A stretch of DNA of 64,000 bases from Ascidia mentula (lineage: Eukaryota; Chordata; Ascidiacea; Phlebobranchia; Ascidiidae). Below, in pieces: positions 53,901 through 56,900 of the stretch; position 1 is the stretch's first letter; every line of letters begins with the position of its first letter. A model generated the notes under the pieces. That model was not told the DNA's origin, made no database searches, and saw only the letters and a program-made list of their open reading frames with translations. Both the position numbers and the translations under genes were made by a program. The stretch lies in contig OX387200.1 of the NCBI GenBank assembly GCA_947561715.1, forward strand, positions 3,536,501-3,600,500. Direction: 5' to 3'.

Positions 53901-56900
53901 TTTTTGGGACGTGGTTTAACATTACTTTTTACTATAGTTATGTATCATGCAAATTAGCTATGCAATATACAAATTAACTATTTCTCATGCACATTAGGTT
54001 ACACACACCACATGCAAGTGTGAGAAAGAAGAAAAGACAGAGAACTGCGGAGAAACCTGGGTACGGACGAACGGACACAAACTAACGTTCACACAAAACT
54101 TGGTAGGACGGACAACTTTTCTGCACACGGCACGTTCGGACGGGGACTCTCAAAGTATAAACCTGATATCACGTGAATAAAGTGCTCGATCTCATTGGCT
54201 ATGGGCGTTTTTCCGCTCTGAATTCCTGAAGTAAGGTTGGCGATGCGTCCCATCACTGTATCGTCGCCAGTTTTTATGACAACGCTACGAGCGGATCCTG
54301 TTTGCAATCGCAGAGAAGGCTTTAGTAACTTGTCGTGAGTGGATATTACTTTGGACGACAATGACCCTTTCGTAGTCATTACGATAATCACAAAATGACT
54401 GCTTTACACTCGTTTGTGTTGTGCATATTGTTTGCCATTAACTGACTCTCGACTCCACGAACTGTCTAACACTGAATAGTATGAATGTCTTCTGTAATAT
54501 TTCCTGCATACACTACATTGCTTCCTTCCAATAACAGCTAAAAAGCAGACAGTTCAGGAAGAAGAAAGAAATCAAAAATCCACCAAAAAATGAAAAATAA
54601 ATTAAAAAACTAAAAATATCACCAGAAAAGTTCATGGAATGAAGGTGAGGGGAGGAAAGTGAATGCAAGCATTAGTTTCCAAACTAAATTAAATTTGATG
54701 TAAGCCACCGATTTCAGCCAACCAGGGTGCAGTAAAGCAGCAAGCCAGCCAACTGTGTGGCGGCAATACCTGATATGATATGGATAAAATGCTCGATTTC
54801 TTTGGCAATGGGGGTGTCGCCAACTTCAAGACCAGAAGCCAATGAGGCAATTCTACCCATCACAGTATTGTCACCACATTTGATAACAATGCCCCTTGCA
54901 GAACCTAGAATTTCATCGAGAGCAACATGTTATGGCTACAATATTATTAATTTGTGGTTTTATTGGCCATGAATTAATTGTAATTTGTAATTAAGCATAT
55001 CTGGAGCTTAAAAACATTTAACATGAATGGGTTTTGCAATTCTTGCAAGTTACTCTTACTGCAGACCTCGGGAAATTCCTTTTGCTCAAATACTACATTT
55101 TCTATCAGCATTCTGAAGGGTGAATACTATGTTCACTGTGGCTTAATGAATACCAGTATCTTTTTGGCACCATAAGCATCTGCACTTCTGAAAACAATTG
55201 TTCACCTGTTTTTCCCCCAAATACTCACTCACTTAAAATACCTTACATTGAGTAACTCCCTGTTAAACTACAGATCTATTCATTCTCCTGGTGAAAAAAC
55301 AAAATATACACCTTTGCTTTGAAAGGTATTTTAAACTAACTAGTATCACGTACTCATAAAGCTTTCCTTGACAAAGCTACAAAAACTCTAATTACATGAA
55401 ATCATGACAATGAAGTGGTGAATCTCCCTAGCGATGGGTGTCATCCCAATTTCCAATCCAGAAGCAAGGGATGCTATTCTTCCCATAACAGTATGATCAC
55501 CACAGCGCACCACCATGCCTATGGCAGTCCCTGTGACACAGTGACTTTCTACATGAACTGAACGCAATACAGATGGCAGGTAACAAATAAACATTCTTCA
55601 ATTACTAATGAATATTTTGAACATGTTTATGTAGCTTTGCTATAAAACTGCAATTCTATGTTTTAACATGTGTTAATAAATGAAACTTATGCATCTTGCT
55701 AGTCTTTGACTCAAAAAATGTAGGTGCTACGTTATGCCTAAAACTTAAATTGTTCCTCATTTGCTTCCTGCAATGCTGTCACTGCTTCTTCTCATAATTT
55801 TTCTCGCTTAAGGTCACTTATTCTCTTTCTTAACATTTATATCAATATACTTATAAAAAGTAAAATTATTTAACAGTTTATAGTCATATCACTATATATG
55901 GCAGTTTAACATTATGTTTATTAAATTGAATAAGAAATCTGTTAACTTCTTTTCCAAATTTATTTTTATGCTAAAATCCCTTTAATTATCATCATCACAC
56001 CTTCAACACAGTTAGTGGAGAAGAAAGCGATGTTCCTTGTTTCAATTGGGTTGTCGTTGGTGCAGTCAGGTCCTCGACTCTGTGGTTCCGATTCTCCAGT
56101 CAGAGAAGAGTTGTCAACCTAACGAACAAGCTATGTTTAAACAACTCTCAAGCACTGCTTGTTGCTACACGTTTAATTTGAAAGTATTACAAACAGTTTG
56201 TATAAAGTTAAGTCACAATAAAGTATCTTTTTTTCTTATGGATGAGAAAAAACCCTTAAACTTATTTTAAAGTATTTGACAAGCATTACATTTTTCCACC
56301 TTTTAAGAAATAAAGTATAAGAGGTGGAAATTGCAGAGCAATTGCAACAGGGTGGGAACTGACTTCCAGAATTCGCAAAGCTTCTGATAGGATAAGTGCT
56401 TATAATACCTTCATTCCATGAGCAGAGATAACCCTGAGATCAGCAGGTATCCTGTCACCACCTTTCACTTCAACAATGTCTCCAACAACCAGATTTTCTG
56501 CCAACATCTGAGATTTTTCACCATTGCGAATGACGAGGGCATACTGAAACGCAAGAGAAAACAGCAGATTGTAAGAAATCCTGCATAATTTTTTTTTGGA
56601 GTGGATCAGGGAGTATTAACTTACCTGGGGCACCATGTTCTTGAAGGACTCCATGATTTTTGAGCTTTTCGATTCCTGGTAATACTGGAAACAACCGGTG
56701 ACAATGACGACCAGAGCGAGCACAACACCCAGGTAGAGCTAAAAGCAAAAACACAACTCTTTTTACAAAATGCTTCACAGACTCGTCTTCGTTTCACGAA
56801 AGAAACAATATTTTTTGTAGTGTTAAATATGGAAAAAAAGTACCTTCAACCATTTTTCGAATACATTCTACTTTAATTAAAAACACCAAGCAACATCAAA

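Follow-up and report, generated by a model that had tools for sequence, protein, structure and literature searches.

Three tandem versions of an exon covering the actuator-M3 linker, probably alternative exons of an ascidian Na,K-ATPase alpha gene

A Na,K-ATPase alpha gene of an ascidian (gene 1; Table 1) contains three tandem versions, E1, E2 and E3, of one 135-nt cassette exon, and judging by its sequence it could probably produce pumps with three different tunings. The explanation that we favour, with a probability of roughly 78% for the whole of it, is that these are three tandem alternative exons of which one is normally joined per pump, the choice being regulated and the exchanged linker altering the cycle. 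Tandem duplication would thus have produced three alternatively chosen exons within the gene, one of which would normally be spliced to exon 5 on one side and to exon 7 on the other, to give three pump forms. The choice, made at weak splice sites, would depend on cell type or stage and might be aided by pairing between introns, with E2 and E3 in the resulting loop, and the swap of the linker would change the E1P-E2P transition and the handling of cations by the pump.

Table 1. Features of the two pump genes in the window, i.e. the whole 64-kb stretch of DNA that was analysed; positions are those of the window.
Feature	Positions	Strand	Remarks
Gene 1, Na,K-ATPase alpha	47963..57562	-	exon model and family match
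Gene 1 exon 5, 118 nt	56001..56118	-	bears TGES, ends ..TNCVEG in phase 1; shared donor
Cassette exon E1	55396..55530	-	135 nt; last base T
Cassette exon E2	54770..54904	-	135 nt; last base G
Cassette exon E3	54163..54297	-	135 nt; last base G
Gene 1 exon 7, 134 nt, M3-M4	53103..53236	-	shared acceptor
Gene 2 segment exon, 266 nt uninterrupted, cassette stretch and M3-M4	42175..42440	-	tandem paralogue
Helix 5' arm, E1-E2 intron	55168..55183	-	GCAGATGCTTATGGTG; weak candidate
Helix 3' arm, intron before exon 7	53419..53434	-	CACCGTAAGCATCTGC; weak candidate

An earlier note on this DNA had placed the exons in a sodium-pump alpha gene, and this identification was borne out: the protein of gene 1, compared in its E2 form only, matches TIGR01106 over its full length (residues 8-1004 of 1004) with 1913.4 bits against a cut-off of 946.1, and judged by sequence it is a true member of the Na,K-ATPase alpha family (X,K-ATPase, type IIC). 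With a single cassette included, the gene model comprises 21 coding exons and GT-AG introns, and it yields 1004 residues with any of the cassettes, as counted from the first ATG in the first coding exon found; the true start possibly lies upstream. This exon (57437-57628, minus strand) is open upstream of the ATG at 57562 as far as an AG at 57629-57630, so that another N-terminus may be supplied by an additional 5' exon or by a spliced-leader acceptor. The minus strand of the window holds a tandem pair of Na,K-ATPase alpha genes, and a protein search of the genome (195.8 Mb in 79 contigs) found no third one when a weak match on contig C70 (44% over 50 residues) was set aside. Nine of the 13 matches in this search lie in genes 1 and 2, three on contig C2 and one on C70; those on C2 look SERCA-like by their own sequence, as judged by a motif. 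Several SERCA-like places adjoin one another on C2 at ~6.877-6.909 Mb, apparently as ~3 tandem copies.

The description of three 135-nt exons with equal phases proved exact in its coordinates: all three (3/3) are preceded by AG and followed by GT, enter and leave in phase 1 and are open in frame. When the gene 1 protein (E2 form) was compared with the window by tblastn at E <= 0.01, gene 1 showed three matches to the cassette and gene 2 a single one. The other detectable exons gave one match in gene 1 and no more than one in its paralogue; at 29 nt, the last exon was below the detectable length. Among the exons that tblastn can detect, the cassette is the only one of gene 1 to be multiplied in the window. 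Searches of the window for a fourth or decayed cassette, with protein at E up to 20 and with DNA at E up to 5, gave no convincing match, and the next-best protein match after the four true ones had E = 0.76.

In human alpha-1 numbering, counted on chain 7e1z_A, the cassette corresponds to residues 252-296 plus the first base of codon 297, a segment that we take to span the last part of the A domain, the A-M3 linker and the first part of M3. The exons had been placed between the TGES loop and M3; they do begin after the TGES-bearing exon 5, but they extend into the first residues of M3. Differences among the copies in the linker, also claimed beforehand, are evident from the alignment of the cassettes, in which the variable positions include 255, 260, 264, 272, 274, 278, 279, 281, 286, 289 and 293. 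The stretch 252-296 presumably also contains the chymotrypsin and trypsin cleavage sites that are used as probes of E1-E2 changes in the pump. At the junction with exon 7, the terminal T of cassette E1 gives Ser-Trp, and the terminal G of E2 and E3 gives Ser-Gly. Position 297 is Gly in E2, E3, gene 2, shark, alpha-1, alpha-3 and H,K-ATPase, the E1 form thus carrying Gly297Trp relative to all other sequences compared; with a Trp at an otherwise kept Gly, E1 could be decaying or special.

Nucleotide identity in the three cassette pairs amounts to 88, 81 and 91 of 135, and protein identity to 33/45 (E1-E2), 27/45 (E1-E3) and 33/45 (E2-E3), i.e. the cassettes differ pairwise at 12 to 18 of 45 residues. 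Third codon positions hold 31/46, 29/53 and 27/44 of the in-frame differences in the three pairs. Values of pS reach 0.79, 0.74 and 0.75 for E1-E2, E1-E3 and E2-E3, as compared with pN values of 0.20, 0.28 and 0.19, and dN among the cassettes ranges from 0.22 to 0.35, the synonymous sites being saturated. When an equal number of changes was introduced at random, none of 20,000 simulations gave as few amino-acid changes, and this held for each of the three pairs. Saturated synonymous sites together with a preserved protein indicate that all three cassettes were long maintained by selection; as far as their sequences tell, E1, E2 and E3 are old, selected alternative exons. The corresponding segment of gene 2 is equally distant from the cassettes (pS 0.67-0.85). 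Identical residues occupy 22/45 positions across nine sequences (the three cassettes, gene 2 and five pumps, fly among them). E2 is the cassette closest to vertebrate alpha (35/45 with shark, 35/45 with alpha-1) and has the shortest branch, and E1 has the longest branch among the tunicate rows (0.52 and 0.45); the best explanation of these sequences is that E2 is near-canonical and that E1 and E3 are derived.

The constraint detected here is a past one, and we are less sure of the current use of E1. Its long branch, its last base other than G and the change from Gly to Trp at the junction could all point to a formerly used exon that is losing its function or is rarely used, with E2 and E3 as the only live copies. 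E1 is nevertheless open, is flanked by AG and GT and keeps every position that is invariant in the other eight sequences, as does E2 (E3 departs from one, G256S). Moreover, its splice sites score no worse than those of E2 (donor 5.95 vs 5.95, acceptor 2.33 vs 1.55), and we consider it unlikely that this copy has dropped out of use.

The splice sites had been described as clean, which is correct for the AG and GT found on all three cassettes but not for their context, which is weak, offers no G at donor position +5 and in E1 includes the terminal T. G at +5 is present in 0/3 cassette donors, as compared with 12/19 constitutive donors of gene 1. Scored with a crude matrix made from this one gene, the three cassette acceptors tend to be weaker than the 19 constitutive ones (p = 0.015 in a one-sided Mann-Whitney test), and the result for the donors against the 19 constitutive ones is less clear (p = 0.063, same matrix). 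None of the cassette donors looks U12-like by eye. A steric block has been described for distances of under 50 bp from donor to branch point (PMC5740500, in the part available); by their length, the introns between E1 and E2 (491 nt) and between E2 and E3 (472 nt) give no obvious sign of such a block.

Joint inclusion or skipping of cassettes preserves the reading frame (135 = 3 x 45, phase 1/1), which rules out exclusivity enforced by a frame-shift or by decay. As the frame permits two cassettes or none, exclusivity would have to come from splicing itself, and the argument for it rests on protein function and not on frame or decay. Lengths divisible by three, equal phases, AG and GT on every copy and the lack of a short intron would all suit cassettes that are optional and can be combined or skipped, without strict exclusivity. 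Two cassettes in a row, however, would give a pump in which the A-M3 linker and the beginning of M3 are repeated, and skipping would take out 45 residues from the last part of the A domain to the first part of M3, linker included; either product should be a wrecked pump, and such loose usage appears highly improbable. We thus infer that each mature mRNA contains exactly one cassette.

There is next to no chance that the array reflects a recent duplication, a haplotype or assembly artefact, or functionless pseudo-exon debris, with which the tandem arrangement by itself would be compatible: the synonymous divergence is saturated and the protein conserved, we see neither near-identical copies nor broken frames, and for the E1-E2, E2-E3 and pre-exon-7 introns a genome search gave no other copy of full length, so that a recent copy or an artefact of haplotype or assembly was rejected. 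Partial matches to the E1-E2 intron were found, of 59 nt at 81% (contig C71) and of 52 nt at 85% (46028-46079 of the window); the piece at ~55283-55333 is the one that matches 46028-46079, and the piece matching C71 overlaps it. A transposon-derived intron was likewise rejected, there being no repeat copies of the pre-exon-7 or E2-E3 intron in a search that skips very common words. On the plus strand, positions 46652-46894 hold an open frame with IPCLNCNTVYICQTKRKLTTRIKEHK, which is reminiscent of the GIY-YIG endonuclease of a Penelope-like element.

With regard to what might guide the choice between the alternative exons, a 16-bp helix can be formed between the E1-E2 intron and the intron before exon 7 (Table 1), and this pairing would loop out E2 and E3. 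It is predicted at a probability of 0.82-1.0 per pair in a fold of 3,016 nt. In shuffled sequences a comparable helix arose in 1/100 and 4/1000 cases for that intron pair and in 22/1000 for any of six pairs; pairing of this strength was less rare in natural control pairs (10/400). Confident long-range helices of 8-12 bp, and none of more than 12 bp, were predicted in 4/8 control stretches, two of which are stretches that overlap each other by ~1 kb. On this modelling, the helix is a weak lead towards a regulatory switch. Such an arrangement is reminiscent of docker-selector pairing of the Dscam type, in which, according to the part of PMC6071210 available, copies lying downstream are likewise looped out when an internal intron pairs with the right-hand one; gene 1 differs in having one partner instead of one per exon. 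The arm before exon 7 scores 38.5 with one intron and 24.0 and 25.5 with the other two (ungapped helices only), and a docker with one selector per exon was rejected on account of this single strong partner. Neither is there anything special about a helix that joins the E1-E2 intron to the intron upstream of E1: it was equalled in 14/100 shuffles and 75/400 controls and is absent from the predicted fold.

In gene 2, a 118-nt exon 5 precedes the 266-nt exon, with an intron of 282 nt between them, and searches of the window found no second cassette in this gene. The gene 1 counterpart of the 266-nt exon measures 135 + 134 = 269 nt and is divided by an intron. Vertebrate genes, we assume, have one 269-nt exon at this stretch; if this is right, the intron is either new in the line of gene 1 or has been lost from gene 2. 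Exon lengths in gene 1 include 204, 114, 135, 118, 199, 193, 176, 137, 151, 169, 155, 124, 146 and 131 nt, many of them presumably equal to vertebrate ones.

LTSG and SGKTPIA are common to E3 and gene 2, and the two are grouped at 75/85 support in the cassette tree, which has too little signal to be firm. The tree test rejects neither a clade of E1, E2 and E3 (p-AU 0.155) nor a grouping of E2 with gene 2 (p-AU 0.12), so that the cassettes may have been duplicated either before or after the genes. One could imagine, as a rather doubtful scenario, that the three-way cassette predates the gene duplication, that gene 2 lost E1, E2 and the intron and fixed an E3-like version, and that in gene 1 the helix switches splicing from E1 to E2/E3 or back; as sources of isoforms, gene copies and splice variants would then have swapped roles. 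Elsewhere in the two genes, exon 8 together with its flanks (52330-52561 in gene 1, 41689-41920 in gene 2) shows 98.3% identity over 232 bp, and exon 8 itself is identical at 199/199 nt. Over 169 nt each, other high values were obtained for the exons at 50808-50983 (97.6%) and 50071-50239 (94.1%); the remaining best exon matches lie at 69-90%, and 2 of 19 constitutive gene 1 exons have no blastn match. The near-identity at exon 8, which bears the phosphorylation site, looks like recent gene conversion.

Exon 11 of the arthropod Na,K-ATPase presumably lies at M9-M10, a site that would differ from that of the cassette. The available text of PMC3793950 reports tandem copies of exon 11, apparently mutually exclusive, in barnacle and Drosophila, with 11a and 11b in barnacle NAK1, two to four copies in Daphnia, Anopheles and Ixodes and four in Drosophila; the mutually exclusive fly exons mentioned in the earlier note have a counterpart in print. 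The same text states the functional importance of the barnacle variants as open. These copies are like the gene 1 cassette in gene family and in being tandem, similar exons, and differ in coming from arthropods and not from a tunicate. They indicate that tandem alternative exons are already known in this family, and tandem exon duplication within it would, if our reading is true, extend beyond arthropods. An exon 6b of the fly Na,K-ATPase is named, without a position in the protein, in the accessible part of PMC6733596. The clusters of mutually exclusive exons that Pillmann et al. 2011 predicted (PMC3228551, as far as available) share equal length, frame, matching splice sites and homology; gene 1, a candidate for this class, presents the same length, phase, homology and constraint. 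Among the matches listed from the open-licence literature, titles and beginnings of abstracts point to no A-M3 cassette in any Na,K-ATPase, nor to such a cassette in the sodium pump of an ascidian.

In P-type pumps, rotation of the actuator is held to be transmitted to the membrane part through the A-M3 linker. The closest functional precedent for the cassette is splicing of this linker in PMCA4, a Ca2+ pump, gene 1 being a Na,K-ATPase: in the part of PMC8428515 available, the A-M3 linker splice forms of PMCA4 differ in basal activity, and PMCA4z is more active than PMCA4x and has a higher apparent Ca2+ affinity. PMCA splice site A resembles the cassette in that splicing alters the A-M3 linker of a P-type ATPase, but in human it adds 0, 12 or 45 residues, whereas the cassette keeps its length and is swapped in sequence (PMC8428515, same part). 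This analogy lies in the possible working of the linker and not in membership, and gene 1 (E2 form) scores 393.7 against TIGR01517 (PMCA), below the cut-off of 507.05. Given that the PMCA4 forms differ, a swap of linker residues could tune the sodium pump comparably. If the three forms are made, they would represent naturally occurring A-M3 linkers of equal length but different sequence, in a sodium pump that is unchanged elsewhere, and given the coupling role ascribed to the linker, such variants would allow a direct measure of that role. A relative of the vertebrates would, on the favoured reading, have diversified its pump by exon choice, for which vertebrates use separate genes.

The genomic setting was also examined by means of a Ciona-type spliced-leader sequence. 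Followed by GT, this exon has 931 + 899 matches in the genome (1,830), as compared with 0 + 0 for a reversed control pattern, and these counts fit an ascidian genome. Spliced-leader-like sequences also form long tandem arrays on contig C1, with a period of ~719-720 bp, which run from ~15239664 to at least 15315846.
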